Below, in pieces: positions 5,302 to 21,459 of a stretch of 64,000 nt of DNA. Source of the stretch: Rhodohalobacter sp. SW132 (GTDB lineage Bacteria; Bacteroidota; Rhodothermia; Balneolales; Balneolaceae). How positions within the stretch are numbered: the stretch's first letter is position 1; every line of letters begins with the position of its first letter. The position numbers were made by a program, and so were the translations under genes. The DNA lies in contig NZ_QUOK01000007.1 in assembly GCF_003390325.1 (NCBI RefSeq), positions 124,001-188,000 of the forward strand, given 5' to 3'. The notes beneath the pieces were generated by a model, which did no database searches, was not told the origin of the DNA, and was given only the letters and a program-made list of their open reading frames with translations.

Positions 5302-5310
5302 GATTCTGCC

Positions 5311-5452
5311 GTAAACTTTGTGGGTCATGTAAAAGTCATCCAACGCCACGGCGTGGGATCTCCAATTCCTGCGAGGGATTGGACGAAAGCAACATGAGGG
5401 GATGCCGCATCGGAGTGCGGCATGACGATCATAAAATTTGACCCACAAGTCC
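5311..5452. repeat. MITE-like inverted-repeat element between dlgD and the Gfo/Idh gene
   Basis: The block is bounded by ACTTTGTGGGTCA near 5315 and TTTGACCCACAAGT near 5438, an inverted pair with GTGGGTCA/TGACCCAC perfect. It contains smaller palindromes such as CGCCACGGCG and GATGCCGCAT/GTGCGGCAT. It has no ORF. This looks like a short non-autonomous element inserted in the spacer; no second copy was found in this window. Confidence 0.5.
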
Positions 5453-5506
5453 CAAAGGAATGACTTTGTCGAATTCCAATAGAACCATTATTAACAACTC
5501 AATATC

Positions 5507-6499
5507 ATGAAAAGCTTTCCTGATTCAGAAGTCAGATGGGGTATTCTTGGAGCAGGGGATGTATGCGAAGTAAAAAGTGCTCCGGTCATGAATATAATCG
5601 AGCATTCAAAGCTGGTAGCTGTGATGCGCCGGACCGGGGAAAAAGCCAAAGATTATGCCGAACGTCATCAGGTTCCCAAATGGTATGATGATGCCGATAA
5701 GCTTCTAAATGATCCCGACATCAACGCTATCTACATCGCCACTCCGCCCGATGCTCACGAATATCTCGCCAAAAAAGCCTTTGCAGCAGGAAAGCCGGTG
5801 TATGTCGAAAAACCGATGGCACGGACATCCCTCGAATGCCGGTCGATGATCGCGGCATCCTCGCAGGCTGGCCTCCCGCTTTATGTGGCGTACTATCGCC
5901 GGGCTCTTCCCAACTTTCTCAAAATCAAAGCACTTGTCGATAAAGGAGTGATCGGCGACGTTCGCCTGGTCAACATTCAGCTCCACAAACCTGCAAATCC
6001 GGATTTAGTAGCAAAGACAGATAATGATTGGCGGGTAAAACCGGAAGTCGCCGGAGGCGGTTATTTTTACGATCTCGCATCCCATCAGCTCGATTTCCTT
6101 GACTTTCTTCTGGGGCCTATTGAAACAGCAACTGGGTTTGCCGGGAACCAGGCCGGTCTGTATGAAGCCAATGATATCGTAACCGGCAGCTTTCGTTTTG
6201 AAAATGGCGTGATGGGCACCGGAAGCTGGTGTTTTACGGCTTCGGATGCATCCTCTATTGATCAAACCATCATCACTGGAAATTTGGGACAAATCACCTA
6301 CCCGACTTTTGACGGATCCGACGTAGTTCTGGAGACTGATAAAAACGGCCGGGAAACGTTCGAGTTTGACCTCCCAAAACATATTCAGCAGCCCCTGATT
6401 CAATTGGTAGTGGATGATCTGCTTGGTATGGATGAATGCCCAAGTACTGGTGTGACCGGAGCACGGACCAACAATGTGATGGAACTCATAACCCGGTGA
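5507..6499 (+). CDS. Gfo/Idh/MocA family oxidoreductase
   Basis: A 330-residue cytoplasmic NAD(P)-dependent sugar dehydrogenase family member. The N-terminal Rossmann motif is WGILGAGDV (residues ~11-19), followed by IYIATPP and the family hallmark YVEKPMA with its catalytic lysine. The C-terminal half has GGGYFYDLASHQLDFLDFLLG, the usual substrate-side histidine segment. Length is normal. It follows dlgD on the same strand, with a 205-bp gap carrying an inverted-repeat element. It probably oxidises or reduces a sugar or sugar acid in the same pathway, but the family is too broad for a substrate call. Confidence 0.88.
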   Translation: MKSFPDSEVRWGILGAGDVCEVKSAPVMNIIEHSKLVAVMRRTGEKAKDYAERHQVPKWYDDADKLLNDPDINAIYIATPPDAHEYLAKKAFAAGKPVYVEKPMARTSLECRSMIAASSQAGLPLYVAYYRRALPNFLKIKALVDKGVIGDVRLVNIQLHKPANPDLVAKTDNDWRVKPEVAGGGYFYDLASHQLDFLDFLLGPIETATGFAGNQAGLYEANDIVTGSFRFENGVMGTGSWCFTASDASSIDQTIITGNLGQITYPTFDGSDVVLETDKNGRETFEFDLPKHIQQPLIQLVVDDLLGMDECPSTGVTGARTNNVMELITR

Positions 6500-6702
6500 A
6501 TGCAATTCTTTGGACAATTCCTGAATCCAAAAGTTTGACTAAAATTTCACACGAGTTGTGTCTTCACTATGGGTACTGGCCGCCTGCCTCTATTCTTATC
6601 GGACCATCAGAATTTACCATGTCATCAATGCTCTTGTGATTATCTGAATCGGGTCTGTTCACAAAAAGAGGTTAGAGCTCTAAGGAAAATTTTAATCTGA
6701 AT

Positions 6703-6735
6703 AAAAAAAAACGGACACCTTCAGGTGCCCGTTTT
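6703..6735. terminator. Bidirectional terminator between convergent genes
   Basis: AAAACGGACACCT/AGGTGCCCGTTTT forms a GC-rich hairpin with an A-tract on the left and a T-tract on the right. It could end both the Gfo/Idh transcript and the convergent DUF3494 gene. Confidence 0.65.
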
Positions 6736-6765
6736 ATGGTTACTATAGATTGCGTTATTACTCTC

Positions 6766-8106
6766 TTATCTGTTTGTTGATGTAGTTTGGCCGGCCATAC
6801 TTCTTGGTTCGGTTACAGTATTATCATCAAGGGTTATGGATGTTTGACTAAACATCCTTCCGTTCAGTTTTGCACCATTTTCAAGTTTGATATCATTTTT
6901 GGACAAAATGATCCCCTCAAATTGTGCATTCTTGCCGATGGTTACTTCACCTTCTACAAACCAAAAGACATTGTCTGCCCGGGCTCCGTCGGTTAAAGTA
7001 ATTACGATATTTTCATCTATCATAAGATCACTACCTACTTTGAAAAGCCATACATCCTCTTCACTGCCTGAAAGAGTCACATCATAATGAATATGGAGCG
7101 AGTCACTCCATTCATGGGTTCCGGAGGTCAACGTAGAATCCTGAAAACTTCCGTTCTTGTGGCTTGCAGTATCATTCCCATTCTGACTCGATGCATTATT
7201 GTAGGCAGACATCATATCTTCGATCGCTTCACTGACATCCTGAGATGTTGTGTCGCTTTGGTCTGATTGCCATACAATAACCTCGTCGGAAGTAGTCTGT
7301 CGTACTGAATCTGCAAAAGCTTTCTCTTCTTTTGTTTTCTCAGTTTCTGTTGTATCTGATACAGAACCTTCTCCGGTGCGTCCCGTTATCATTGATTCGG
7401 ATCCATTATGGATGTTTGTTTTTGCGAGAATTACAAACTGGCCGGCTTTACCAAGATCAATCATGGTTGTCGTACTTTTTTGTGTCGTATCTGCAGCGCT
7501 GTCCCTGTATTGGTTATTCTCCAAACCATATCTATCCGTATCAAGGGTGCTGTGTTGATTTTCGGTGTATGCCCAATCAGATGAACCATTCGTTGAAAAA
7601 CTCCAGTTATGTTCATTTTCCAGAGCAATATTCTCTGAATTTTTCACGCCGCTTGTTACGGTAAAAGTGTATTCGGCACCCTCTTTCAATTCTGTGTCAG
7701 GTTCGAAAACCGCAACGTTGCCAGAATAGCTGATGGTACCACTAACAGCGCCGTTATTTTGCTGCCAGTCTTTTTCAGAATCCTTTTTTTCTGATCTCTC
7801 TTTTATACGATCATCCATATTCTCGCCTTGATCTTTATTCATTGAATCTGCAGACGTTATATATAATTTTAATGTATTTTCGTTAATCGTTGTTTCATCC
7901 ATCTCGCTGCTGAATGTGATCTCAATAACACTACGCAGATCAACATTTTCCTCACCACCGGCGGGATTTGTTGATAGAATAACGGGTGATTCTGCCTCAG
8001 GGTTTACAATAGTGGTTGCATCCTGTGCAATACTGCCGGCAGTAAAACCGGTGAAGAGCAGAGTTGTAATGGCAATGCTTTTTAAAAACTGTTTATCTTT
8101 TCTCAT
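6766..8106 (-). CDS. Secreted Ig-like (Big_5) plus DUF3494 ice-binding-like protein
   Basis: Starting at the ATG at 8106 gives 446 residues with a clear signal peptide (positively charged start, hydrophobic stretch, TAGSIAQ). The frame is open 35 codons further upstream, but that extension would bury the signal. Residues ~40-175 resemble a bacterial Ig-like Big_5 domain (PAGGEENVDLRSVIEITFSS, WSFSTNG). The rest matches the DUF3494 ice-binding-like beta-helix: LGKAGQFVILAKTNIHNG, then VWLFKVGSDLMID, GARADNVFWFVEG, GAQFEG-like KNAQFEGIILSKNDI and GAKLNGRMFSQTSITLDDN. The two DUF3494 parts are separated by a long acidic, Ser/Thr-rich insert. The family includes true antifreeze proteins and plain adhesins; which this is cannot be told. 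Confidence 0.8.
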   Translation of the reverse strand: MRKDKQFLKSIAITTLLFTGFTAGSIAQDATTIVNPEAESPVILSTNPAGGEENVDLRSVIEITFSSEMDETTINENTLKLYITSADSMNKDQGENMDDRIKERSEKKDSEKDWQQNNGAVSGTISYSGNVAVFEPDTELKEGAEYTFTVTSGVKNSENIALENEHNWSFSTNGSSDWAYTENQHSTLDTDRYGLENNQYRDSAADTTQKSTTTMIDLGKAGQFVILAKTNIHNGSESMITGRTGEGSVSDTTETEKTKEEKAFADSVRQTTSDEVIVWQSDQSDTTSQDVSEAIEDMMSAYNNASSQNGNDTASHKNGSFQDSTLTSGTHEWSDSLHIHYDVTLSGSEEDVWLFKVGSDLMIDENIVITLTDGARADNVFWFVEGEVTIGKNAQFEGIILSKNDIKLENGAKLNGRMFSQTSITLDDNTVTEPRSMAGQTTSTNR

Positions 8107-8250
8107 GATTTTTTGTTTAAAGATTGGTGTAAGTACATATTTCAGCTTTAATATGCTTATAAAATTGCTGAGGGCTGTTACAGCATCCTTGCCATGAGTT
8201 GCAGATATCATTGAAGGGTTTTTGATCGAATTCCTCCTGTTTTAATCAAA

Positions 8251-8503
8251 ATGGTTTAATTCCCCGACCCTCTGGGTCGGAGAGGATAAAAGTCCCCCTT
8301 TGAAGGGGGAAGCGAACGGAGTGAGCAGGGGGATGACTTCCTGAGTGTGGAAGTGTGCATGGAGTTTCTTGTTGTGAAGCTCTGTAGGTCATCCCCCATT
8401 GCCCCCTTCGAAGGGGGACACTCCAGAATAAACTTCATATCGACCAGAAAGGTATGGGACCCAATTTGATACCTCGTGGGCTCTGCCTCGAGGTAGTTCA
8501 TTA
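8251..8503 (+). repeat. Dispersed repeat family A, copy 1
   Basis: Non-coding block running from TGGTTTAATTCCCCGACCC through AGTCCCCCTTTGAAGGGGGA to CTCGTGGGCTCTGC and AGGTAGTTCATT. Near-complete copies lie at 17574-17836 and 43622-43983. The two halves carry complementary GGGGGA/TCCCCC tracts and can fold on themselves. Long open frames across it on the minus strand are by-products of the repeat. The remaining spacer 8504-8783 shows nothing recognisable. Confidence 0.8.
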
Positions 8504-8783
8504 AAACTCCTTTCAAAATTATGTGGTGGAGATGTTTCATATATCTCAATCGGCACCTGTTGGCAGTAAATCCACATATAAGCTTCATTCTGGTGATAAT
8601 AATACGTTGATTTCTCCCGCACCTTTTCATTCAGGATCAAAATTTCATGACATGGCCTGTGATATATGTAAGACTTTGAAAATCACGCATAATGCATGTT
8701 AGTATCAATATTCACAAGTTTACATCTCAAAGACTATATAACCGTAATTGGTTATGGTATTGTAAAATTTGGATGGGGAAATC

Positions 8784-8987
8784 ATGAATGTGAAACAAAC
8801 ATTAGGCGGTTTAATGAGTGTCGCCGGATTTATCGGCGTCATATTTTTCGGATTTCAATACCTGGACGACTCAGAATCGTTTTCAATTCTGGGTGCAGAT
8901 GTTGCAGTTAGTACGGGTGATGTCGTTCCGATTCTGATATCACTCATTATCCTTATTGTGGGAGTCGTGATATATCGGTCTGAGTAG
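8784..8987 (+). CDS. Small two-helix membrane protein
   Basis: A 67-residue protein starting MNVKQTLGGLMSVAGFIG, with two hydrophobic helices (residues ~8-25 and ~45-63) joined by an acidic loop, ending in RSE. ATG 8784 is preferred over the longer start at 8769 because GGGGA stands about seven bases before it and the hydrophobic helix then begins at the usual distance. No family is recognised. It stands alone between repeat A and a small lysine-rich gene. Confidence 0.55.
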   Translation: MNVKQTLGGLMSVAGFIGVIFFGFQYLDDSESFSILGADVAVSTGDVVPILISLIILIVGVVIYRSE

Positions 8988-9244
8988 ATCCTGCTTGCAT
9001 TGGGGAGGGGGGAAATTTTCGGAAGCCGTTGGATTCAAGGGAATGTGTATCTGATGCAATGATGGTATGGGATAGGAGCGAAATAAATTATTATTAAGGT
9101 AGTTTGTATCCCGATACTTAAATGGCAGATCATATTTCGGGCTGACGTTAATTATATAACTCAAACCTTTTAGACTGTAACAAAATGCTATGGCTATTTC
9201 TATATTTTGGGTTGCAGTTTATCAGTAAACAAAACGGAGAAACC

Positions 9245-9367
9245 ATGGATAAGCAAGACAAAGACAAAAAAAAGAACAACAAAAGTGAGAAAAGACCTGT
9301 AAACAAAAACCCTCAGTTCAACCCGGAAAAAGATTCGGACAGTAAAGCCAAGAGCAAAAAAGGCTAA
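9245..9367 (+). CDS. Small lysine-rich hydrophilic protein
   Basis: Forty residues, almost entirely charged or polar (MDKQDKDKKKNNKSEK...), with a GGAG Shine-Dalgarno-like sequence just before the ATG. The frame extends upstream to 9185, but that part is hydrophobic and unrelated in composition, so the shorter start is chosen. No family recognised; composition is like that of small stress-associated or nucleic-acid-binding peptides. It could also be a chance ORF. Confidence 0.4.
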   Translation: MDKQDKDKKKNNKSEKRPVNKNPQFNPEKDSDSKAKSKKG

Positions 9368-9618
9368 ACCGAAGTTCTTACTTGTTCAAGCGGGCTTTTG
9401 AAAAGATCAGAAGCCTGCTTAAAGTAAGTAGTTAAATTTCGCTACTGATTCACTGAAAATCCCCCTCTCTTCATTTACGAACTCATCGTATAGATTAACC
9501 GGTTTTGTGACATGCCAATGCGGAAAAAATTATAGTCATTGGTTAAGACCGTCATAAATCTTTTGATGTCTATTTATGGTTAATATACCTTTTAAACTAC
9601 AATAATTGGTGATGCAGG

Positions 9619-9777
9619 TTAGTGCTTTGCAATGATCCATATTGCATGAATGATGCCGGGAATATAACCAAGAATTGTCAGCAGTATATTCAGCCAGAAA
9701 GCGCCGGTTAATCCAACTTCTAAAAATACCCCGAGTGGCGGCAGGATGATTGCAAAAATGATTTTTATAATATCCAT
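9619..9777 (-). CDS. Pmp3/YqaE (UPF0057) family membrane peptide
   Basis: A 52-residue proteolipid read on the minus strand, starting MDIIKIIFAIILPPLGVFLE and ending IWIIAKH. The family signature is plain: two transmembrane helices, ILPPLGVFLEVG in the first, and LNILLTILGYIPGIIHA in the second. These peptides are common in salt- or cold-stressed organisms, where they are thought to influence membrane potential. It stands alone, flanked by 250-700 bases without other genes. Confidence 0.92.
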   Translation of the reverse strand: MDIIKIIFAIILPPLGVFLEVGLTGAFWLNILLTILGYIPGIIHAIWIIAKH

Positions 9778-10484
9778 AGAAGTATTCTCTTGTTTTTAGT
9801 TGAAGCTTATTTTTAAGATAATATTTGACTTATTCAGCCCTTTTCATGACTGACATAAGTGTAAATATATCACAGAATTTGTCTATAAAAAATCAGATGA
9901 GTAAAAACAGTAAATTATATAACAAACGTCACTAAAATATATAATAACGGCTATAATTTATATTCTGCATATTCATCAAACATCACAGCAGGATATATCG
10001 GTCTTAGATCAGAGAAGGTTTTGAGATACCCAACTGTCGACCGGTTCAAAAAGAGTGCAGACGGGTAGTAATGCCCCGAAGGAATGCCTGCAGTACAAAT
10101 CACACTTAGAGGATTTTAAACATAAATCAGATTCTGATACTCCATACAGCCGGAAACTCATGGCTTCAAAAATGGTTAGGAGCAACAGATAGCATGAGGA
10201 TATAAAATTGCTGCTCACAAGTAGTTGCATATGCAATTCTGAGGGATATGCATTTGGGTTATTATTCAGTGCATATCACAAAAAAACTTTAGAAACGGGA
10301 ACACAACTATAGAGATGAGGTTTATTCAAATGGAGCATTATCAGGGTTACGGCTTTTCTGATTGTAATCAACACAGATAGCCGCAGACTGAGAAGTTAAA
10401 AATCAGTTGAATTAATAAACCTGATTCTAAGCATGATCTGAGTCAAAAAATTCAATTCAAATCACTCAAAGAGAAGTAAAAATT
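9778..10484. other. Spacer without recognisable genes
   Basis: About 700 AT-rich bases. The only longer frame (10009-10236, minus) has no family resemblance. No clear repeat or hairpin of note. Confidence 0.5.
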
Positions 10485-10670
10485 ATGAAAGAGATGAATA
10501 AAATACAGAATCAAATAGAGCATTATATACAGGGACAGTTAACAGAACAGGAAGTTGATGCATTATGGACTGAGTTTCTGGAAACACCGGAATTGTACGA
10601 CTATTATTTAACCGTTATTAATTTGCAGGCTTTATTTCAGGACAAAAGTCTGGCATATCACCATCCATGA
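10485..10670 (+). CDS. Small helical protein resembling the N-terminus of anti-sigma-type proteins
   Basis: Sixty-one residues, MKEMNKIQNQIEHYIQGQLT and on, with the pattern IxxYIxGQLTEQEVDALWTEFLETPELYDYYL. This looks like the short helical N-terminal module that begins many Bacteroidota/Balneolota anti-sigma or TPR membrane proteins, where it is followed by a transmembrane helix. Here the protein stops after that module. It is either a stand-alone small protein or a truncated remnant. AGAGAAG before the ATG is a possible ribosome site. No sigma factor is adjacent. Confidence 0.45.
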   Translation: MKEMNKIQNQIEHYIQGQLTEQEVDALWTEFLETPELYDYYLTVINLQALFQDKSLAYHHP

Positions 10671-11049
10671 TTCCTGAAGTATAGCAGGGATGAGCAGCAG
10701 ACGGTTATGCCCGGTCCAAAATTCCATCGGACCTATTCTGAACCTGAGACACTGTGATCCCCGGTGTAACGGAATGCATGAAATGGCGAGTGAAATACAT
10801 CAACTGTAAAAGTTATAATTGTTGGTGTCAATTGTATAACTATTTATCAAAAAATTGTTCATATATATTATAGATAATGAGTCATTATAACAGCTGTCCA
10901 AATATTTTAAATATTAACTCATAACTTTGATTTTGTTTATTCAGAAAGGATTTTTTTCAGGTTTAAAACCGGTCCTTTTCTTTTCTCTGTTATCGCAGAC
11001 AAACGCATATGAATACGCTGAGTCTCACAGAATTTTTTTTAATGTAAAT

Positions 11050-11083
11050 GCCTCTCGGACTCTACCCCGAGGTAGTTCATTCC
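11050..11083 (+). repeat. Fragment of dispersed repeat family A (3' end)
   Basis: CTCTACCCCGAGGTAGTTCA matches the last part of family A (compare 8481-8503, 17815-17836). The rest of the spacer 10671-11162 holds nothing recognised. Confidence 0.6.
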
Positions 11084-11162
11084 AGGCGACTCGATGTTTT
11101 TAGAATCTCATCTCATCAATGAGTGATCGGTATTACACGACATTTTAATTGAGGATATTTCC

Positions 11163-12242
11163 ATGAAAATTGAAACCGGTATCTTATCAGCTATAGGTAA
11201 TACACCTCTTGTGGTGCTGAATAAATTATATCCTGCCATCTCTTCCACACTGTATGCAAAACTTGAAATGCTGAACCCCGGCGGCAGCACAAAAGACCGA
11301 ACAGCTTTGCTGATGTTATCTAAAGCAATAGAGGAAGGTGAACTCGACTTTAACAGTACGGTAATTGAATCAAGTTCCGGCAATATGGCGATAGGTCTTG
11401 CACAGGTTTGTCGTTATCTGGATTTAAAACTTATCGTGGTGACAGATCCAAAAATTAACCGGCATACCGTAGATCTTCTCCAGGCTTATGGAGCCCAGAT
11501 CGAACGCGTAACAGAAGCCGATTCCAGCGGGAATTACCTGGAGAACAGGCTGGAGCGAGTCAGAGAGCTTCGGGACACCATACCGAACAGCTACTGGCCA
11601 AACCAGTATTCAAATGATCTGAACCCGGAAGCCCATTATCATACAATGAAAGAAATTGTAGACGACTGTCAGGAGCCGCCCGACTATCTCCTTGCGGCAA
11701 CAAGTACATGCGGTACAATCATGGGTTGTGCGAGCTATATTCAAGAACATAACCTGAAAACAAAAGTTGTGGCGGTGGATGCAGTGGGGAGCGTAATCTT
11801 TGGTAATTCCAAAGGAAACCGGCTGATTCCGGGCCACGGTGCAGGCAGGAAATCGGATTTGCTTGATGAATCCTATATCGACCATGTTTTTCACATGACA
11901 GATATCGATTGTGTTGTAGGCTGCCGGCGTTTATTGCAGCGCGAATCTATTCTGGCCGGGGGATCGGCCGGAGCTGTGGTTATGGCCGCTGAAAAATTGC
12001 AGTCATCAATTCCGGAGAATTCAAGCTGTGTACTGATCTTTTCAGATAGTGGTGAGCGTTATCTGGACACAATATATAATGATTCCTGGGTCAAAAGCAC
12101 GTTTGATAAGGCACGTAAGCGGGACAAAAAAGAGTCAGATAGAAACGGCATACCAGTCTCAACGCCTGTTATGGTAAAGAACACTGGTCTGATTGATGAT
12201 CGATGGCCAAATAAAAATGGCGGAGCAGAAGACCATTCGTAA
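11163..12242 (+). CDS. SbnA-like PLP-dependent beta-replacement enzyme (cysteine synthase fold)
   Basis: A 359-residue fold-type II PLP enzyme. IGNTPLV opens the domain; NPGGSTKDR carries the PLP lysine (Lys44); ESSSGNMAIGLA is the substrate loop; STCGTIMG the phosphate loop; AGGSAGA and FSDSGERYLDT close it. NPGGSTKDR, the length and the downstream PLP decarboxylase favour the SbnA type (N-(2-amino-2-carboxyethyl)-L-glutamate synthase, the first step to L-2,3-diaminopropionate) over housekeeping CysK, but CysK-like or other amino-acid beta-substitution chemistry is possible. There is no SbnB homologue; an FAD/NAD(P) protein follows and overlaps by 26 bases, so the two are probably translationally coupled. 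Confidence 0.75.
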   Translation: MKIETGILSAIGNTPLVVLNKLYPAISSTLYAKLEMLNPGGSTKDRTALLMLSKAIEEGELDFNSTVIESSSGNMAIGLAQVCRYLDLKLIVVTDPKINRHTVDLLQAYGAQIERVTEADSSGNYLENRLERVRELRDTIPNSYWPNQYSNDLNPEAHYHTMKEIVDDCQEPPDYLLAATSTCGTIMGCASYIQEHNLKTKVVAVDAVGSVIFGNSKGNRLIPGHGAGRKSDLLDESYIDHVFHMTDIDCVVGCRRLLQRESILAGGSAGAVVMAAEKLQSSIPENSSCVLIFSDSGERYLDTIYNDSWVKSTFDKARKRDKKESDRNGIPVSTPVMVKNTGLIDDRWPNKNGGAEDHS

Positions 12243-14109
12243 AGTAGCGATCATAGGGGGCGGACCAAAAGGAATCTATGGGTTTGAACGGCTTGCTGCG
12301 TGGCTAAAGGTCTGTCCGCCATCGGAAAAAATCGAAATTCATATATTTAACAGATCAGATTCATTTGGGGCAGGAGAAAACTACAGGACTGACCAGCCTT
12401 CGTATCTTCTCATGAATAACCCGGTGGGAGATGTTAATATGTGGAGTGAAGAAAAACCTCTTCCTGTGGTTCAAAATCCGCTTTCCTTACCGGAATGGTT
12501 GTGCCGATTTGCGGGGATGAATATTTCAAATAACGATTACGCAACCCGTGCCATGGCCGGCCGGTACCTTTCTCATGGATTTAATGAAATCGCATCCAGC
12601 CTTCCGGAAAATGTGGAGGGCAAATATATTGTTGGTGAGGTTGTTGATATCTACAAAAACACCGGAAAATATTCCCTCAGCCTAAAAGCTATAGATGATA
12701 AGAAGTACCGCCATCAGGCAGATCGATATGATCACGTTTTGCTGGCCACGGGTCACCCGAAGCACAGCAATAAAAAACAGTCTCGTCTTTTTAAATCGTT
12801 TGCTGATAATCATCAAAAAGCCGGATTCATTCCATTTGTCTACCCCGCCGAAACGGTTTTTTCTGATGTTCCTCCGAATTGCACCGTTGGGATAAAAGGG
12901 ATAGGCCTCACATTTGTGGATGCAGTTCTTGCACTTACTGAAGGTAAAGGCGGCCGGTTTTCCAGAGATGAGATATCGGGCAGGTTAACCTATATTCGCT
13001 CAGGTGACGAACCAAAGGTGATCTATCCCTTTTCCAGGAGTGGGCTCCCGATGATTCCCCGCAAATCTGTCACGATTAAGAATAACGAGCTGAAGTATTT
13101 CACAAGATCTGCCCTGCAGAAATTTGAGCCCGGTAAAAAATTGAATTTTGAAGAACAGATCTGGCCGCTTCTGAAGCAGGATATGATCTATGCGTATTAT
13201 CACATAGCATTGAAGAATAGCGGATATACGGAAGGGTTATCCGGCTGTGAAAGTTTTGAGGAGATTGAACGATATATAGAAGAGTTTCATAAAAAAAATC
13301 CTTCTGAGTTACGATTTGATCCCAATACGTTTTTAGATCCTTTCCATGCATCGGAAATTCAGAAGGGCAAATCCCACCATCAATTTATAGAAGCTTTATA
13401 TAGTGAATACCTACAGGAAGCCAGGAAAGGAGAGCTGAGGAGTCCGCTTGCTGCAGTGACGGCTGTCTGGAGAAAAGCTTCTTCGCTGTTTTGTGAACTG
13501 TATTCTTTTGGCGGACTCACTCCGGAATCTCAACAATCTTTTGACCATTTAATTCGAGGTAAACTGAATCGCGTTACTTTTGGACCGCCGGTTGAAAATG
13601 CTGAAAAGTTGTATTCGCTTATGGAGTCGGGAATTTTGAATTTTGATGCAGCAAGAAATCCGGACCTTGTTTTAGATAAAGAAAGCGGTTCATATATACT
13701 CCAGTCCAGACCGAACAATACCGGCTATCCCGTTCATTTCCTCGTCGATGCACGTATTCCAAAAGTTACACTGGCTGATAATCCCGGCCCTCTGTTCCGG
13801 AATTTAATAAACCGCGGATTGATCAGCCTTTACGAAAACAGTTCTGGCAATGAAGCCTACCGGCCGGGAGCGGTCAATATATCCCGCCAGGGATTTGTGA
13901 TCGATAAAAATGGAACCGTCAATCGAAGAATTGCTGTTACGGGTACTCCCACGGAGGGAATCACATTTGATAACGATACTCTTTCAAGGGATCGGAACAA
14001 TTTTGTTGATGGCTGGGCTGAATATATTAGCAGGGAATATGCGAATATAGCGTCAATGGTGAACCTTCCATACCAGTCATCGGATGAGTCTTCCATGAAT
14101 CATTTATAA
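12217..14109 (+). CDS. FAD/NAD(P)-binding protein of the NAD_binding_9 type
   Basis: About 630 residues. The N-terminus has KVAIIGGGPKGIYGFERL, the dinucleotide site of the FAD-NAD(P)-binding family (PF13454-like), followed by SFGAGENYRTDQPSYLLMNN and LLATGHP, then GIGLTFVDAVLALTEGKGG. Such proteins sit beside PLP enzymes in many secondary-metabolite clusters; their chemistry is mostly unproven. ATG 12217 is preferred over TTG 12193/ATG 12196 because it puts the nucleotide-binding strand ~10 residues from the start. It overlaps the SbnA-like gene and precedes a PLP decarboxylase. It may replace SbnB as the redox enzyme of the pathway. Its last codons lie in copy A of a tandem duplication. Confidence 0.7.
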   Translation: MAEQKTIRKVAIIGGGPKGIYGFERLAAWLKVCPPSEKIEIHIFNRSDSFGAGENYRTDQPSYLLMNNPVGDVNMWSEEKPLPVVQNPLSLPEWLCRFAGMNISNNDYATRAMAGRYLSHGFNEIASSLPENVEGKYIVGEVVDIYKNTGKYSLSLKAIDDKKYRHQADRYDHVLLATGHPKHSNKKQSRLFKSFADNHQKAGFIPFVYPAETVFSDVPPNCTVGIKGIGLTFVDAVLALTEGKGGRFSRDEISGRLTYIRSGDEPKVIYPFSRSGLPMIPRKSVTIKNNELKYFTRSALQKFEPGKKLNFEEQIWPLLKQDMIYAYYHIALKNSGYTEGLSGCESFEEIERYIEEFHKKNPSELRFDPNTFLDPFHASEIQKGKSHHQFIEALYSEYLQEARKGELRSPLAAVTAVWRKASSLFCELYSFGGLTPESQQSFDHLIRGKLNRVTFGPPVENAEKLYSLMESGILNFDAARNPDLVLDKESGSYILQSRPNNTGYPVHFLVDARIPKVTLADNPGPLFRNLINRGLISLYENSSGNEAYRPGAVNISRQGFVIDKNGTVNRRIAVTGTPTEGITFDNDTLSRDRNNFVDGWAEYISREYANIASMVNLPYQSSDESSMNHL

Positions 14110-14311
14110 ATCCAGCGCGACTCGATTCTTCGAGAAACTCATCCGATGACTAAACACCAAAACCAACCTGAACAGTATGCATATTGATCAAAATTGAGTC
14201 ATCGGATGAGTCATTTATGAATCACAAATTGATCCAGCACGACTCGATTCTTCGTAAAACTCATCCGATGACTTCGAAGACTAAACACTAAAACCATACC
14301 TGAACAGTATG
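14075..14311 (+). repeat. Imperfect tandem duplication of the gene junction with internal 15-bp inverted repeats
   Basis: AGTCATCGGATGAGT (14075-14089) pairs perfectly with ACTCATCCGATGACT (14137-14151), and the same pair recurs at 14197-14211 and 14259-14273. Between and after the arms both copies share CGACTCGATTCTTCG, CTAAACAC and CCTGAACAGTATGCA. Copy A holds the end of the FAD gene and a false start at 14177 (six codons, then stop); copy B holds the true start of the next gene at 14309. The unit is ~122-132 bp. Confidence 0.85.
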
Positions 14312-15742
14312 CAAACGGATAAAAATTCACATATGTATCCCCCCTTAACGCCCATTACAGATTCATGGATGAAAAATGTTTTTTCGAATCTTCCATTCCT
14401 CGAAGATCTGTTCAAGGAATATGGATCGCCAATAAACATTCTTCATACAGGGCCGTTTCAAAAAAATTATGAGCAATTTTCACAGGTTTTCGAGAAGCAT
14501 AAGTTGTCTCACACCATCTTTTTTGCAAGGAAAGCCAACCGGTGCAAGGTGTTTGTAAAGGAAGCAAACCGCCTTGGGTTCGGAGTGGATACAGCGAGTT
14601 ATCTTGAATTAAAACAGTGCCTGGAGATGGGGGTTGAAAAGCTTGTACTGACGGCAGCGGTTAAAGATGAGAAGCTGGTGCATCTGGCGCTTCAGCATGA
14701 TGTACTGATAATTCTGGATAACGAAGACGAATGCCGCCTGGTAAACAGGATTGCGGGTGAACTCGGTAAAACTGCCAAAATTGGAATTCGGATCAGCGGC
14801 TTTCGCTACAACGGAGAAAAACTCTACAGCAGATTTGGGTTCGATATAGATTATGCCTCGGAGTTCATAAAATACCATCTGGGAGAAGGGAATGTGCATG
14901 AGAATCTTCGGTTTGATGGTTTTCATTTTCATCTTGATGGGTATTCGACAGAGCAACGGAGTGAAGCTCTGTTACAAACGATACACCTTGCCGACCGGCT
15001 TCTGGATCACGAAATCGAAACATCATTTATCGATATGGGCGGGGGGATTTTAATAAACTATCTCTCTTCAGAATCTGAATGGGAGACGTTCTGGAGTGAG
15101 CTCAAAAAGGCGGTCAGGGGTGATCGGTCACCGGTTACATTCGGCAATAACGGTCTGGGATATGAACTCATCAACGGAGAGCTGCGTGGAGAACCAGATG
15201 TTTATCCCTATTACAACGAAAATTCAAAAGTAAATTTTCTTGACGATATATTATCCTACCGGAACAAAACTGGAGAAACTCCGGCCGATCTGTTGCGCGA
15301 AAGAGGAATTGAGATAAGGATAGAGCCAGGAAGGTCGCTGCTGGATCAAACCGGGTTCACGATGGCAAAAGTGATCCATCGAAAAAAAGATTCGAGGGGA
15401 AACTGGCTGATCGGTCTTGAAATGAATCGAAGCCAGCTCAGCAGCTCAAGCGCAGATTTTCTGCTTGATCCCGTGTTCATTCAAGCAAATAACGATGACA
15501 GAGAAAAGAAAGCAACCCCGGTTTATTTTACCGGGGGCTATTGCCTGGAACAGGACATTATCCTGAAGCGAAAAATTGTTCTGCCTTGTCTGCCTGAGCC
15601 AGGCGATATTGTCTGTTTTCCCAACACGGCAGGATATTTGATGCATTTTTACGAAACCCGGTCTCATCTATATGACTTCACAACCAACGTGGTGATCGAT
15701 GAAATATCAGAAGTGCCGGAGGTGCACCATGAAAAATTTTAA
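14309..15742 (+). CDS. Y4yA-family PLP-dependent decarboxylase (fold type III)
   Basis: A 477-residue member of the alanine racemase/ornithine-diaminopimelate decarboxylase fold. FFARKANRC carries the PLP lysine (Lys75); GFGVDTASYLEL, LTAAVKD and ILDNEDE are typical of the Y4yA branch rather than LysA. GFHFHLDGYS, FIDMGGG, IRIEPGRSLLDQTG, GGYCLEQD (the cross-subunit Cys) and NTAGYLMHF complete the active site. It would decarboxylate an amino-acid intermediate in the cytoplasm, by analogy with SbnH in staphyloferrin B synthesis. No NRPS-independent siderophore synthetase (IucA/IucC) is visible nearby, so the product is unknown. The start is fixed by the duplicated junction upstream. Confidence 0.8.
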   Translation: MQTDKNSHMYPPLTPITDSWMKNVFSNLPFLEDLFKEYGSPINILHTGPFQKNYEQFSQVFEKHKLSHTIFFARKANRCKVFVKEANRLGFGVDTASYLELKQCLEMGVEKLVLTAAVKDEKLVHLALQHDVLIILDNEDECRLVNRIAGELGKTAKIGIRISGFRYNGEKLYSRFGFDIDYASEFIKYHLGEGNVHENLRFDGFHFHLDGYSTEQRSEALLQTIHLADRLLDHEIETSFIDMGGGILINYLSSESEWETFWSELKKAVRGDRSPVTFGNNGLGYELINGELRGEPDVYPYYNENSKVNFLDDILSYRNKTGETPADLLRERGIEIRIEPGRSLLDQTGFTMAKVIHRKKDSRGNWLIGLEMNRSQLSSSSADFLLDPVFIQANNDDREKKATPVYFTGGYCLEQDIILKRKIVLPCLPEPGDIVCFPNTAGYLMHFYETRSHLYDFTTNVVIDEISEVPEVHHEKF

Positions 15743-15751
15743 GCTGATTTT

Positions 15752-15784
15752 AACCCTCCAAGAGTTTTAAACTCTTGGAGGGTT
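15752..15784. terminator. Perfect 16-bp-stem palindrome after the PLP decarboxylase
   Basis: AACCCTCCAAGAGTTT and AAACTCTTGGAGGGTT are separated by one base. It begins 9 bases after the stop. No T-run follows, so it may stabilise the 3' end or attenuate read-through into the antiporter instead of terminating fully. Confidence 0.55.
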
Positions 15785-15838
15785 CAACATATATCATGAA
15801 TAGCCTGGTCTGTTTTAAACGATTACAAATCACCGGTT

Positions 15839-17092
15839 TTGGAAAACTCCTATCCTGTTTTTTTTGAATTTGATTTCTATGTGGTACAGTTGCTTGTATT
15901 AGCATCCGTCGTGCTTTTGATACTGATCGTAGCGCCGCGTATAGAATCAAAAAAATATATTACCACACCTATCTTTTTTTTATTGCTGGGGATTCTGCTT
16001 TTTCTGCTGCCAATTCCATGGGAGTTGCCCGAACTGAATGATGAGCCGGTAATTTTAAAACGAATTACAGAATTTGGAGTGATTGTCGCGCTTGTCTCAG
16101 CCGGGCTAAAAATTAACGAACCTTTCTCTTGGAAAACCTGGGGCCCCAGTTCACGATTACTCCTGGTTACCATGCCTCTGACGATTGCTGCGACAGCTTT
16201 TTTGGGATGGTGGGGGGCGGGTCTGGTCCCTGCATCGGCAATCCTGTTGGGTGCCGTTCTCGCACCTACTGACCCGGTTCTTGCAAATGATGTTCAAACG
16301 TCCGATCCGGGATCACCCGATGATTCATCCGTGCGCTTAACATTAACAACGGAAGCTGGTTTAAATGATGGTCTCGCTTTTCCTTTCACCAATCTCGCAA
16401 TTGCTGTTGCTGTTCTTGGCCTTGCACCCTCGGCATGGATTGCTGACTGGCTTCTTATAGATGTGTTCTATAAAATTATTGTCGGTGGAATTGTAGGAGT
16501 CGTTTGCGGTAAAATTTTAGGGTTCTTACTCTTCAACATACCGAAAAATAAAAACTTAAAAATAGCTGATAATGTATTTGCGATTGCCCTTGTGCTTTTT
16601 CCTTATGCGGCAGCGGAATTGGTGTCATCATACGGATTTATTGCGGTATTTGTATCTGCGTGTATCTTTCGCCAGAAAAGGCCAGAGCATGATTACCAAA
16701 GCAGGGTACACCAATTTTCGGTAACAATGGAGAGTTTGATGGAAGGAATACTGATGCTCATTATTGGAGGGTATCTTGTATTTGGAGTATTGGACTCCTT
16801 AACCTTTCCCATGATTGCAGTCAGTTTTGCGATCCTATTTTTAGTGCGGCCAATCAGTGGTTTAATCGCATTTATAGGAAGTGATCTGCCGAAACATAAA
16901 AAGTGGGTAATCTCATTTTTTGGAATAAGAGGTATAGGTTCTTTGTACTATCTCTCTTATGGAATCTATATGGCTGATTTTCCTCAGTCTGATGAACTAT
17001 GGGCGATTACTATTTTTATTGTGGCTGTCTCTGTTATGATCCATGGGGTTTCTGCTAAACCGATCATGGAACGATTTTCAAAAAAAGAATAG
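15839..17092 (+). CDS. Cation:proton antiporter (CPA1/NhaP type)
   Basis: About 417 residues with 11-13 hydrophobic segments. The conserved ion site is visible: GAVLAPTDPVLANDVQ and, after it, LTTEAGLNDGLAFPF, the TD and ND pairs of the CPA family. GIRGIGSLYYLSYG near the C-terminus matches the RG(I/A)xGSLYYL segment of these antiporters. The start is TTG at 15839; no in-frame ATG stands nearer the first helix. It follows the PLP-enzyme cluster on the same strand after a strong palindrome. It most likely serves Na+/H+ homeostasis in a saline habitat; a role in exporting the cluster's product is only a guess. Confidence 0.85.
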   Translation: MENSYPVFFEFDFYVVQLLVLASVVLLILIVAPRIESKKYITTPIFFLLLGILLFLLPIPWELPELNDEPVILKRITEFGVIVALVSAGLKINEPFSWKTWGPSSRLLLVTMPLTIAATAFLGWWGAGLVPASAILLGAVLAPTDPVLANDVQTSDPGSPDDSSVRLTLTTEAGLNDGLAFPFTNLAIAVAVLGLAPSAWIADWLLIDVFYKIIVGGIVGVVCGKILGFLLFNIPKNKNLKIADNVFAIALVLFPYAAAELVSSYGFIAVFVSACIFRQKRPEHDYQSRVHQFSVTMESLMEGILMLIIGGYLVFGVLDSLTFPMIAVSFAILFLVRPISGLIAFIGSDLPKHKKWVISFFGIRGIGSLYYLSYGIYMADFPQSDELWAITIFIVAVSVMIHGVSAKPIMERFSKKE

Positions 17093-17276
17093 GTAAATAA
17101 AATCTGTTAGCAGGTGTTGTAATTACTAAAACAATTGTGAAAATCAGGGCCGTGAGATAACCAGAATTCATGCAAACAAATAAATAGAATACACTGTTTA
17201 TAAAATGGGTAGCTCATGGAACTCTGAAGATCCCGGGAAGTTAGAATTGAAACGTAAATTCAAAATAAATATCACC

Positions 17277-17519
17277 ATGAATGACGAAACCGTAAAAAAA
17301 ATAGTCATAACCAGTGCAACGGTCATTGTTGGATATACACTAAGGCAATTGGCTCAAAAGAAATGGAAAGATGTATATGATGAAGAACCACCCGCATCTC
17401 ATACATCTGAAGAGATAAACTGGAAAAAGGTTATCATTTGGAGCCTGATAACCGGAACAGTAATTAGCACTGCTGAACTGGCTACCAAAAGATATCTGAC
17501 CCTTAAGCTGGATGTCTGA
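17277..17519 (+). CDS. DUF4235-like small membrane protein
   Basis: Eighty residues from ATG 17277 (open upstream to 17205). A hydrophobic helix (KIVITSATVIVGYTLRQLA), an acidic loop with KDVYDEEPP, then a second helix (VIIWSLITGTVISTAELATKR). This order and the ...W..V..W....G......ELATKR pattern resemble DUF4235 proteins. Function unknown. It stands alone between the antiporter and a repeat-filled spacer. Confidence 0.6.
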   Translation: MNDETVKKIVITSATVIVGYTLRQLAQKKWKDVYDEEPPASHTSEEINWKKVIIWSLITGTVISTAELATKRYLTLKLDV

Positions 17520-17573
17520 AATTGCAGGGAAGAGGGCAGTCACTTGAGACTTCCCAATACTGATTTTAATCCA

Positions 17574-17836
17574 AAGTGGTTTAATTCAAAGTGGTTTAAT
17601 TCCCAGCCCCTCTGGGTCGGAAAAGATAAAAGTCCCCCTTTGAAGGGGGAAGCGAACGGAGAGAGCTGGGGGATGATTTTCTAAGTTCAGAATGGTCCAA
17701 TTCTTGGTTTTGATCCACAACCAATCATCCTCCATACCCCTTCGAAGGGGGACACTTCAAAATAAACTCGATATTGGCCAAAAAGTTATGGATCCTAAGT
17801 TGATACCTCGTGGGCTCTGCCCCGAGATAGTTCATT
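17574..17836 (+). repeat. Dispersed repeat family A, copy 2
   Basis: Begins with AAAGTGGTTTAATTC present twice in tandem (17574 and 17589), then TCTGGGTCGG, AGTCCCCCTTTGAAGGGGGA, CCTTCGAAGGGGGACACTTC, CCTCGTGGGCTCTGC and GAGATAGTTCATTT. It matches copy 1 throughout, in the same orientation. Confidence 0.85.
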
Positions 17837-17837
17837 T

Positions 17838-18003
17838 ACGGGGTTGTCCAAAAAGCATGAACTGAATTCTCAGAACCGAAATACCTTAAACATGCTATGA
17901 ATGGTTTATTGAGCTCCCCTCCATATGGAGTGTATTTGCGACATAGGGAGGGGCCGGGGGTGGGTTAAAAAGAGCGGGTACTCAAATTCAACTCATAAAC
18001 GTA
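17838..18003 (-). repeat. Dispersed repeat family B, copy 2
   Basis: Reverse complement of the block at 1178-1340 over ~160 bases with few differences, directly abutting family A copy 2. The remaining spacer to 18267 is AT-rich and shows no gene; it probably carries the promoter of the YtxH-like gene. Confidence 0.85.
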
Positions 18004-18267
18004 ACAGGTTTAAGATACCGGGCACAATGATAGTCAGACAAATGAGCCAGGGTAATACTGACTAAAATTCCTGTTTTTGGCAGTTCTCCAAAGCATGAAA
18101 TTTTATTACATGAATTAATGTTATATCGTATCTTATAATAAGTATTGAATGTTTCAATTCATTCATAAAATATTTAGAACCGAGGAGGATGGGTACGTAG
18201 TTGTTTTAAGGAACAATTAATAGAAGTATAAATATAAATCACTGAATTTTAACATAAATCAAAAGCC

Positions 18268-18687
18268 ATGGCGATGCTCGATAAGAAAGAAATTCAAAAT
18301 TTTATCCGTCAGTTCAATAAGAAAAATGATTCAATGCAAACCGAGAAGCTTATTCTGGTTGCTATTTCAAGTGCTGTAGGAGGAGCACTTCTTGGTATAT
18401 TGTTTGCTCCCGATAAGGGGAAAAACACCAGGAAACAATTAGCCAAAAAAAGGGATGAATATCTCGAGGAGATCATTAAAAATACCGAAGAGCTGAGTCA
18501 GCAGCTGAAGAATAATACGGAGTCAATTCTGGGAAAATCTAAGAAGACTCTTCAGGATTTAAAACAGGATGTAGAAGATTATTCTGAATTATCCTATCAG
18601 GAACTGTATGATCTTGCAAAAGAGCTTAAGGTTAATGGATATTCTCAAATGAATAAATCCGAACTGATACAGGCGTTGAAAGATTAA
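18268..18687 (+). CDS. YtxH-like protein with C-terminal Rho-N/SAP-like motif
   Basis: A 139-residue protein. Residues ~27-50 form the glycine-rich transmembrane helix typical of YtxH (ILVAISSAVGGALLGILFAP), followed by DKGKNTRKQLAKK and a long charged coiled coil. The last ~35 residues (YQELYDLAKELKVNGYSQMNKSELIQAL) look like the helix-extended-helix of Rho N-terminal/SAP modules, which bind nucleic acid. YtxH proteins are general-stress membrane proteins of unknown mechanism. The added C-terminal module suggests a membrane-tethered nucleic-acid or protein contact; inference only. Confidence 0.72.
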   Translation: MAMLDKKEIQNFIRQFNKKNDSMQTEKLILVAISSAVGGALLGILFAPDKGKNTRKQLAKKRDEYLEEIIKNTEELSQQLKNNTESILGKSKKTLQDLKQDVEDYSELSYQELYDLAKELKVNGYSQMNKSELIQALKD

Positions 18688-19130
18688 CAGCTTGGTAATT
18701 AAAATATAGTCCCTTACTTCCCTGAGAGATTAACTTCGGGGAGAAGGGGCTCCATTTTTGAACACGCAGCAGCGACAGGTGATCCGCGGGTTAACGGAGA
18801 GCAGGAGGGTTGCCCATCTTATCCGGGGTATGGTTAAAAACACGATCTTAAGACACTATATGATTATCTCCGGTAAAATACGATAAGTTTATATTTACAG
18901 GTACCAACTACCCTGAATGCGATTAATAATATATTTCATTTATTCGGTATCAAGCCTCTCCTAAAAAGGAGATCATTTTTTGAACGCGAGGCGAAATTTA
19001 GTTGAATGTTTATCAGTTTTTTCAGATTGGATGGACATCCCCCTTCCCGAAGGGATCTCTTTGGGACAATCCCTCTTTTCTATAGGCTGTGAGAAAATAA
19101 ATCAACAAGCATTAAAAAAACTCCTTCTAT

Positions 19131-19225
19131 TTGGCCACGATGACACGAAGAATCACGAAGGATAGTAATTTGATTTTGTTATACTTCGTGTACCCTCGTG
19201 GCTTTGCGTCTTCGTGGTAAAAATA
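19131..19225. repeat. Inverted-repeat element with CCACGAxGACACGAAG arms
   Basis: GGCCACGATGACACGAAGAA and ATCACGAAGGATA on the left mirror CTTCGTG and GCGTCTTCGTGG on the right, around an AT-rich middle. Elements with CCACGAAGACACGAAG arms are widespread in bacterial genomes. It lies inside a decayed family A-like copy (CATCCCCCTTCCCGAAGGGA at ~19036 to CTCGAAGGGGGACTTTTTT at ~19273). The spacer 18688-19343 has no convincing gene. Confidence 0.65.
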
Positions 19226-19343
19226 AATGACCGATATCTTTGAATAAGTATTGGAATTGCAATTGATTTTCCTCACACTTTCTCGAAGGGGGACTTTTTT
19301 CTCATTTTTTACAAGATGGCAGTGACTTGAGATTTCAATATCT

Positions 19344-19904
19344 CTACAGATCTTCCAGGTTTTTTGAGCGCATATCTTTGAGTTCTTTGAAGTAGGTGGG
19401 AGTAAGTCCCGTCACTTTTTTGAACTGATTCGATAAATGAGCGACACTGCTATAATGTAGTTTATGGGCTATTTCAGTAAGAGTAAGTTCATCATAGATC
19501 AGCAGTTCTTTAACTTTTTCCATCTTGTGCAGAATAATGTATTGCTGAATGGTCATTCCTTTTACTTCCGAAAAGGTGTTGGAGAGGTAGGTATAGTCGT
19601 AATCCAGCTTCTCGCTGATATAATCTGAATCATTTACTTTTGGCACCTCCTCAGAGTAGTGTATCATTTCAACAATCACGGCTTTAATCTTTTCAACCAG
19701 GATGTTCTTTTTATCATCCAGTAACTCAAGCCCCGATTTCTTCAGGTTTTTGTTAAAAATTTTTAGCTGCTCCTCGGTAATTTCCTCCTTGATTTCAACC
19801 ATGCCAAGATCAACAGAAATACTGGTTAGCCCAAGCTTTTCCAGCTCGCTCTTCACCAGCATCTTACAGCGCAAACTAACCATATACTTAATATATAGTT
19901 TCAT
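19344..19904 (-). CDS. AraC-family regulator with HMA-like N-terminus (paralogue 1)
   Basis: A 186-residue protein. Residues 1-62 have the beta-alpha-beta-beta-alpha-beta pattern of a heavy-metal-associated domain (MKLYIKYMVSLRCKMLVKSE, ELEKLGLTSISVDLGMVEI, KKSGLELLDD). The C-terminal ~100 residues form a double helix-turn-helix of the AraC type: YDYTYLSNTFSEVKGMTIQQ and LTEIAHKLHYSSVAHLSNQFKKVTG. Related Bacteroidota proteins carry CxxC at the metal loop; here the loop reads SLRC (Ser10, Cys13), so one ligand is lost. A close paralogue with the same change lies at 35801-36361 in opposite orientation. No metal transporter is adjacent. Ligand and targets unknown. Confidence 0.82.
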   Translation of the reverse strand: MKLYIKYMVSLRCKMLVKSELEKLGLTSISVDLGMVEIKEEITEEQLKIFNKNLKKSGLELLDDKKNILVEKIKAVIVEMIHYSEEVPKVNDSDYISEKLDYDYTYLSNTFSEVKGMTIQQYIILHKMEKVKELLIYDELTLTEIAHKLHYSSVAHLSNQFKKVTGLTPTYFKELKDMRSKNLEDL

Positions 19905-20672
19905 GTTATACCCATTGCCTGAATTCAGCTTTCATTTTATATGATGTCAATCGTAATGTATACTTAAGCTTGATTGACTTAATTATATCATAATCATTTA
20001 AAATGAATATTGTGAATGATTTTGCACTATTGATTATTTAAGGTAGCCAATCTCATACCACTGCACTTATTGATTTAAATGATAAGGTTACATATATCAC
20101 AGTTTTTAAGTGATTGGAATTTATTCAGTTTTAAACGTCTGCATCAAACCATAATACGCATTCTCTGTAGTTAGTGCTATTACATCTCAAACTCGTGATT
20201 GCGGTTTGGTGATCAAAAAACGGCTGTTAAGTATACATCCCGTAGTTTTTCTGAAGTCCGCTCTATCATAATAAACACGATGTACGGCTCATTCGTTGTT
20301 GTATAAAAAGCTCGTCAATTATCGCCTCCCCAATACATTCTATAATTAGTCTGACCGGATCGTGAAATCCTCCAAAATGGATGCCGAAACCACTGCTATG
20401 TACTGCAATGATGTGTGAGCGGTTATTCATCGCCCATCGAGTTAGAAATAAACAGATAAACGAGCACAGAAGTCTGTTCGGCAATTTCTAAAGGAAACTG
20501 GAATCACATCATACATAGTGAAGTAATTAATTTAAAGTATAAAAATATTTCACGGTTAAGGTGATTTTGAGAAGAGGCTGGTAAGTCGTTTTAGACTGTC
20601 TGATGCTTTATATTCCAATGGAGGGTACAGCACCAAATCTATTTTTTATAAGAAAATAAAGAAGGTAAAAGC
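19905..20672. other. Long AT-rich spacer between divergent genes
   Basis: 768 bases separating the AraC-HMA gene and the acetyltransferase gene. It must carry both promoters. The only longer frame (20266-20484, minus) resembles nothing known. Confidence 0.5.
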
Positions 20673-21347
20673 TTGAACGAGAATAAATCTGAAAAAAAGC
20701 CTGAAAAATTGAAAGGCCCAAACCCAAATGATAAAGAGCCCATGAAGGGGTTCCCACAAGTGGGATATCTGAAAAATTATATTTCGTCCGAAAATATCAT
20801 AGTGGGTGATTACACTTATTATGATGATCCTGAAGGCCCGGAACGGTTTGAGAAAAATGTTCTGTATCACTTTCCGTTTATTGGCGACAAGTTGATTATT
20901 GGAAAGTTCTGTGCCATCGCCAAAGATGTAACATTTATCATGAATGGAGCCAATCATAAGGTTTCAGGATTTTCCACGTATCCGTTTCAAATATTTGGTA
21001 ACGGGTGGGAAAAAGTTTTGCCAAAAGAGGGAGAACTTCCATTTAAAGGCGATACCGTAATTGGGCATGATGTCTGGATCGGCTACGATGCCACATTAAT
21101 GCCTGGAGTTAAAATTGGAAGCGGGGCTATTGTCGCCAGTAAATCTGTAGTTACCAGAGATGTGCCGCCATATAGCATTGCAGGAGGTAATCCTGCCAAT
21201 ATTATTAAATACCGGTTTGATGAAGGCACAATCAAAGAACTCCTGGAAATTGCCTGGTGGAATTGGAGTGCAAATAAAATTACGGAAAATCTTGAGGAAA
21301 TAGTTGGCCATGACCTGGCTTCACTACGTCGTGTAAGTGACAAGTAA
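20673..21347 (+). CDS. Vat/CatB-type hexapeptide acetyltransferase
   Basis: A 224-residue left-handed beta-helix acetyltransferase of the xenobiotic type. KNYISSENIIVGDYTYYDDP, YHFPFIGDKLIIGKFCAIA, MNGANHKVSGFSTYPF (with the catalytic His of the family), IGHDVWIGYDATLMPGVKIG, IVASKSVVTRDVPPYSIAGG and NPA are shared with streptogramin A (Vat) and type B chloramphenicol (CatB) acetyltransferases. The start is TTG 20673 with GAAGG eight bases before it. It runs convergent with the RND operon. Chromosomal homologues in environmental bacteria need not confer resistance. Confidence 0.85.
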   Translation: MNENKSEKKPEKLKGPNPNDKEPMKGFPQVGYLKNYISSENIIVGDYTYYDDPEGPERFEKNVLYHFPFIGDKLIIGKFCAIAKDVTFIMNGANHKVSGFSTYPFQIFGNGWEKVLPKEGELPFKGDTVIGHDVWIGYDATLMPGVKIGSGAIVASKSVVTRDVPPYSIAGGNPANIIKYRFDEGTIKELLEIAWWNWSANKITENLEEIVGHDLASLRRVSDK

Positions 21348-21402
21348 CAAAGAGGATGTTGTGAATTAATTTATGTTTGGTTGTTTAGAAGAAAGGATTA
21401 GA

Positions 21403-21431
21403 CATACCGCCCCCATTACCAGGGCGGTATG
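21403..21431. terminator. Hairpin between the acetyltransferase and the RND operon
   Basis: CATACCGCCC/GGGCGGTATG, a perfect 10-bp stem around CCATTACCA, midway between two convergent stop codons. Confidence 0.6.
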
Positions 21432-21459
21432 TATCTGATATCATCACAGACTTTTTTGG

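Follow-up and report, generated by a model that had tools for sequence, protein, structure and literature searches.

A recurrent SbnA-FAD protein-Y4yA gene trio that may form a cassette for an N-oxygenated amino-acid derivative

Three consecutive genes of Rhodohalobacter sp. SW132 encode an SbnA-type pyridoxal phosphate (PLP) fold-II beta-replacement enzyme, an FAD/NAD(P) protein, and a Y4yA-type PLP fold-III decarboxylase, and the same trio recurs in distant genomes. We see about an even chance that it is a self-contained three-enzyme biosynthetic cassette in which an amino-acid adduct would be formed, N-oxygenated, and decarboxylated. This succession is the simplest reading of gene content, gene order, co-inheritance, a gene fusion, and residue conservation, all of which we observed directly and from which the reactions are predicted.

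The trio spans positions 11163-15742 on the + strand of the window, by which we mean the whole 64,000-nucleotide stretch analyzed (contig NZ_QUOK01000007.1, 124001-188000, from a 5.08-Mb draft assembly); a genome scan found the closest named relatives in the Balneolaceae. The SbnA-type gene (11163..12242, + strand; 359 amino acids) overlaps at its 3′ end with the gene of the FAD/NAD(P) protein, a predicted amine N-oxygenase (12217..14109, + strand; 630 amino acids from the ATG at 12217). The reading frame of the latter opens at a TTG at 12193, the ATG being the likelier start, and the overlap is 26 to 50 nucleotides, depending on the start. The Y4yA-type gene (14309..15742, + strand; 477 amino acids) follows after a gap of 199 bp that is absent from relatives and is explained by copies of a 77-nt palindrome-ended dispersed repeat, the first of which (14075..14151) provides the 3′-terminal codons of the FAD gene and the second of which (14197..14273) lies in the gap. 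The repeat has 15-nt perfect inverted ends (AGTCATCGGATGAGT/ACTCATCCGATGACT), shows a tandem duplication of 131 to 132 bp of flanking bases, and has 11 exact-arm matches in the genome plus more diverged ones; it looks like a small nonautonomous mobile or REP-like element. A hairpin with 19-nt arms that are 95% complementary (15749..15787), many similar copies of which occur genome-wide in both orientations, lies 3′ of the decarboxylase gene. No RNA elements were found in the region 8000-20000, and a promoter and terminator scan gave signals no more frequent than in shuffled sequence.

In three Balneolaceae genomes a cyanophycin locus, with genes for an isoaspartyl-peptidase-like asparaginase, a cyanophycinase-like S51 peptidase, and cyanophycin synthetase, lies near the cassette: at 1-1116 of the window and in the 14 kb upstream (L069 10085-15116), at 13409-21824 of locus L021, and at 4504-9241 of locus L039. 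In L039 the synthetase gene immediately precedes the FAD gene; in L021 it appears interrupted by another open reading frame.

Searching 84,980 species genomes with the FAD protein alignment yielded 21 loci, 19 of them readable (L039 and L041, at a contig edge or truncated, were left out). The SbnA-type, FAD, and Y4yA-type genes are present in identical order on one strand in 16 of the 19. Carriers within the Balneolota and Bacteroidota are Balneolaceae, Fulvivirga, Anditalea, Litoribacter, Mongoliibacter, Pleomorphovibrio, Flavilitoribacter, Membranihabitans, Sphingobacterium, and Rhinopithecimicrobium; the trio is also present in one Chloroflexota (Chloroflexi) metagenome-assembled genome and, besides these genome loci, on plasmids of Sulfitobacter pontiacus and on Tsukamurella pTpau01. 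Neighboring genes of the trio in most cases overlap or are only a few bases apart, some of the overlaps being upper limits as starts were set at the longest reading frame. In Gracilimonas mengyeensis, in two copies of the locus that appear to come from one genome, the SbnA-type and FAD proteins form a single 952-amino-acid reading frame that has both a PALP and a PF13454 domain. Over 19 loci, the pairwise distances of the three proteins are correlated (r of 0.90, 0.90, and 0.92, with none of 5,000 permutations as high), to which the kinship of the organisms contributes in part. Because the trio recurs in distant genomes, its linkage is not due to chance. The cassette is nonetheless rare: among 394 genomes sampled from the phylum, 11 have the FAD protein, some of them in distant forms. 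In the FAD protein tree the Chloroflexi copy stands beside the Balneolaceae copies, which suggests that the cassette was transferred as a unit. Hence, the clustering of three enzymes on one strand with the first two overlapping, as given in the preliminary description of the locus, is borne out by reading frames, protein families, and recurrence, and the genes are linked in related genomes.

Apart from a luciferase-like monooxygenase and background synteny among Sphingobacteriaceae, and from widespread families such as the short-chain dehydrogenases, no further gene family was found to recur across the loci. Five Sphingobacteriaceae loci have the monooxygenase gene, of the MsnO8 type, close to the FAD gene, whether SbnA-type and Y4yA-type genes are present or not: upstream of the cassette in L035, L038, and L040 and upstream of a lone FAD gene in L036 and L037. 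The CPA1 antiporter gene that follows the trio in the window (15839-17092; Na_H_Exchanger, 119 bits) was considered as a fourth member and rejected, as its family does not recur in three or more loci; the preliminary description had included the antiporter in the span of the cluster. Locus L041 matches a genome of the same genus (L015). Its SbnA-type gene is intact, but a 23-residue start of the FAD protein runs into a Y4yA fragment, by which we judge this cassette to be decayed or misassembled. Two AraC-type regulator genes of the window (19344-19904 and 35801-36361, 186 amino acids each) are similar to each other, and both match one gene near the SbnA-type gene of L041 (87% and 74%).

The SbnA-type protein has a PALP domain and scores 417 bits with the TIGR03945 model (PLP_SbnA_fam; cut-off, 350); the Gracilimonas fusion reaches 420, the Sulfitobacter protein 359, and the Tsukamurella protein 344, just under the cut-off. 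Its nearest solved structure is Staphylococcus aureus SbnA (5D84; E-value, 2.6e-83), in which Arg132, Tyr152, and Ser185 are the O-phosphoserine residues (PMC12414870). These three and the PLP-binding Lys47 are conserved in every cassette homologue aligned. Ser185 is replaced by Gly in cystathionine lyase (CBL) and in L019 and L020, SbnA relatives on Agrobacterium and Mycobacterium plasmids. A tree places the cassette proteins and SbnA apart from the genome's own CysK/CBS-type enzymes, with moderate support (90/70). Judged by family model, residues, and this tree position, the enzyme is not a housekeeping CysK, and its earlier description as SbnA-like therefore stands.

The Y4yA-type protein matches Orn_Arg_deC_N (PF02784) with 71 bits, while its score with the diaminopimelate (DAP) decarboxylase model TIGR01048 (115 bits) is below the cut-off of 298. 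DAP decarboxylases rank first in a profile search among the structures listed, and plasmid relatives carry the annotation Y4yA family. The predicted structure has a pLDDT of 85.5. Lys75, HFH 206-208, GGG 244-246, EPGR 339-342, and Cys412 are invariant across 17 cassette homologues, and because the PLP lysine, these motifs, and the cysteine are all retained, the protein should be an active decarboxylase. The families of both PLP enzymes include CysK and LysA, respectively, and two paralogues of these from ordinary cysteine and lysine metabolism could in principle be chance neighbors. We find this scarcely credible in view of the SbnA model and residues, the tree position apart from the genome's CysK/CBS-type enzymes, the linkage across phyla, and the genome's only other decarboxylase-type match, a weak one on contig C5, separate from the Y4yA-type protein. 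Housekeeping functions as CysK and LysA were rejected on these family models, residues, tree, and second decarboxylase-type match.

What does the FAD protein contribute? Enzymes of this family of the nitrosuccinate-synthase type oxygenate amines. The window protein contains a PF13454 (NAD_binding_9) domain (97 bits), and the one relative with a solved structure is the aspartate N-hydroxylase of Streptomyces (8CP2/8CP5; E-value of 5e-38 with the single sequence and 6.3e-74 with the profile). The alignment to 8CP2 is nearly full length with conserved FAD and NADP Rossmann motifs, identity to characterized enzymes is about 25 to 30%, and the AlphaFold2 model has a pLDDT of 88.8. Aspartate N-hydroxylase makes nitrosuccinate, and its active-site residues have been named (PMC10404684). 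We mapped this active site onto the 20 FAD homologues of our alignment A2. The catalytic Asn62 and Arg266 (8CP2 numbering) are kept in all 20 and Arg409 is kept in 19, and Trp51 is replaced by Tyr or Phe. The aspartate ligands Arg13 (replaced by Lys), Asn413, and Arg416 (Asn in a few homologues) are replaced in all 20, and Arg276 is replaced in 18; the window protein has Lys, Asn, Ser, and Cys at Arg13, Arg276, Asn413, and Arg416, respectively. By alignment spacing only, Arg591 of the window protein would align with Arg577 of 8CP2. Because the catalytic Asn and two Arg residues are kept and most residues of the aspartate chamber are changed, we regard the FAD protein as a probable N-oxygenase whose substrate is not aspartate.

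The full-length homology, the FAD and NADP domains, and Asn62 are also what would be expected of a nitrosuccinate or 3-nitropropionate synthase like FzmM or CreE, which would make the trio a nitrite or nitro pathway. We consider this very unlikely, because the window protein does not have the aspartate chamber, the cassette homologues carry other residues in place of Arg13, Asn413, and Arg416, which most noncassette relatives keep, and no CreD-type lyase recurs with the cassette. The RxxRNxxR-type helix is likewise kept in most FAD relatives from other plasmid clusters, and the A2 homologues form a separate clade (support, 95/97); outside it, the Sulfitobacter and Tsukamurella proteins form long branches of unsure placement. 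A nitrosuccinate synthase proper was rejected on the mostly nonconserved aspartate pocket.

Within the flanks examined, the FAD homologues of L022, L036, and L037 have no SbnA-type and Y4yA-type partners, nor do the more distant ones of L056 and L058 within flanks of a few kilobases; therefore, the FAD protein may also act on something else. The Balneolaceae homologue at L022 976-2829 (identical to L011) has 52% identity and a convergent cytochrome-P450-like gene beside it. Some noncassette relatives adjoin nitronate monooxygenase or PEP-mutase-like genes. FAD homologues on a Staphylococcus epidermidis plasmid (L063) and a Streptomyces plasmid (L065), thus in two phyla, are in look-alike clusters that share genes for an isochorismatase, a TauD-type dioxygenase, a cupin, LeuC/LeuD, and an aminotransferase.

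In staphyloferrin B synthesis, SbnA and SbnB provide L-2,3-diaminopropionate, with SbnH as a further enzyme. The absence of SbnB and of an IucA/IucC synthetase, reported earlier for the neighborhood, holds for the whole 5.08-Mb assembly. The sole OCD/mu-crystallin protein of the genome scores 102 bits with the SbnB model TIGR03944 (cut-off, 327) and passes the pyrroline-2-carboxylate reductase model with 364 bits (cut-off, 322); its gene adjoins proline-racemase-like and aldehyde-dehydrogenase-like genes, and this only candidate for an SbnB elsewhere in the genome was rejected as a pyrroline-2-carboxylate reductase. The host genome lacks the synthetase that marks an NIS siderophore cluster, and the families that recur around the cassette include no synthetase, receptor, or exporter, so that the metallophore role suggested at first is not supported. 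The preliminary description had also put the FAD gene in the place of SbnB, and its fixed position directly 3′ of the SbnA-type gene, even to the point of fusion, agrees with this.

SbnA produces an amino-acid adduct of aminoacrylate. By analogy, the SbnA-type enzyme would join O-phosphoserine and an amino acid (glutamate or another) into an adduct. The FAD protein, as an NAD(P)H- and O2-dependent amine N-oxygenase with an altered pocket, would then oxygenate the adduct nitrogen, a step we base on homology, linkage, and the natural fusion. Because their genes are fused and overlapping, we would say that the two steps are coupled, with the product of SbnA indicated by the fusion as the substrate of the FAD protein. 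In the least certain step, a second oxidation would give a nitrone, hydrolysis of which would yield a keto acid and N3-hydroxy-diaminopropionate. That nitrone hydrolysis takes the place of SbnB is a guess; SbnB would not be needed because, in this proposal, the hydrolysis releases N3-hydroxy-diaminopropionate. Finally, the Y4yA-type enzyme would, judging by its motifs, remove an alpha-carboxyl group to give a small diamine that bears a hydroxylamine, or a similar N-oxygenated compound. The SbnB-independent oxidative route in full, from SbnA adduct through nitrone to N3-hydroxy-diaminopropionate and keto acid and by decarboxylation to a hydroxylamine-bearing diamine, we put forward as a tentative possibility; it would make the trio a widespread source of an N-oxygenated building block of a type so far undescribed.

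It is rather unlikely, in our estimate, that the FAD protein is instead a flavin oxidase or dehydrogenase that replaces SbnB and converts N-(amino-carboxyethyl)glutamate via an imine to diaminopropionate and 2-oxoglutarate with no N-O bond formed, the Y4yA-type enzyme then making ethylenediamine or a decarboxylated conjugate. The position of the FAD gene at the place of SbnB, its fusion to SbnA, and the absence of SbnB from the genome would fit, as would an Agrobacterium SbnB-like protein that sits with Y4yA and a cysteine-synthase relative; however, its nearest characterized relatives oxygenate nitrogen and have an NADP domain that the FAD protein conserves, and the Asn that is catalytic in the N-hydroxylase does not vary among the homologues of the FAD protein.

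The order of the first two steps could also be reversed: the FAD protein would N-oxygenate a free amino acid, the SbnA-type enzyme would add this N-O nucleophile to the aminoacrylate from phosphoserine, and the Y4yA-type enzyme would decarboxylate the conjugate. DcsD, which adds hydroxyurea in D-cycloserine synthesis, offers a parallel, SbnA-type enzymes tolerate nucleophiles in principle, and a fusion would channel either way. Moreover, the substrates of characterized relatives of the FAD protein are free amino acids or aminophosphonates (PMC10404684). We nevertheless hold the reversed order to be unlikely, since the aspartate pocket is mostly not conserved and gene order and translational overlap, a weak pointer, put SbnA first.

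We thus return to adduct formation, N-oxygenation, and decarboxylation. Because the FAD protein is related to amine N-oxygenases like nitrosuccinate synthase, we expect the product to carry an N-oxygenated group, probably as a hydroxylamine-type diamine or amino acid. This sharpens the diaminopropionate-type product or diamine suggested at first, as plain diaminopropionate or a plain diamine is probably not what is made. If our reading is true, a minimal cassette present in five bacterial phyla would turn phosphoserine into an N-oxygenated amino-acid derivative by means of only three soluble enzymes, the nitrosuccinate-synthase family would gain a new substrate and the unassigned Y4yA decarboxylases a product, and the Gracilimonas fusion would offer a single protein for examining whether beta-replacement is coupled to N-oxygenation.

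In open-licence papers we found no description of the SbnA-FAD protein-Y4yA trio. It resembles the SbnA-SbnB/SbnH system in combining, in one operon, an SbnA-type first enzyme carrying the O-phosphoserine triad with a fold-III PLP decarboxylase; it differs in that the genome has neither SbnB nor IucA/IucC, an FAD N-oxygenase-like protein is present instead, and the decarboxylase is by profile nearest to DAP decarboxylases among the structures listed. The FAD protein shares homology, Rossmann motifs, the catalytic Asn, and equivalents of Arg266 and Arg409 with the nitrosuccinate synthases (FzmM, CreE, 8CP2) and PcxL, whereas Arg13, Asn413, Arg416, and mostly Arg276 are changed and a CreD-type lyase partner is missing. 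The L-alanosine pathway likewise combines a diaminopropionate route with N-oxidation, and N3-hydroxy-diaminopropionate is a proposed intermediate in it (PMC11705231); there, however, the N-hydroxylating enzyme is taken to be a flavoprotein resembling acyl-CoA dehydrogenases, the nitrite may come from CreE/CreD homologues, and the account consulted describes no Y4yA partner. Finally, clusters in Rhizobiaceae such as Agrobacterium vitis also have Y4yA and an SbnA-related enzyme in one operon, but with an SbnB-like protein in place of the FAD protein and a cysteine-synthase relative that lacks Tyr152 and Ser185.
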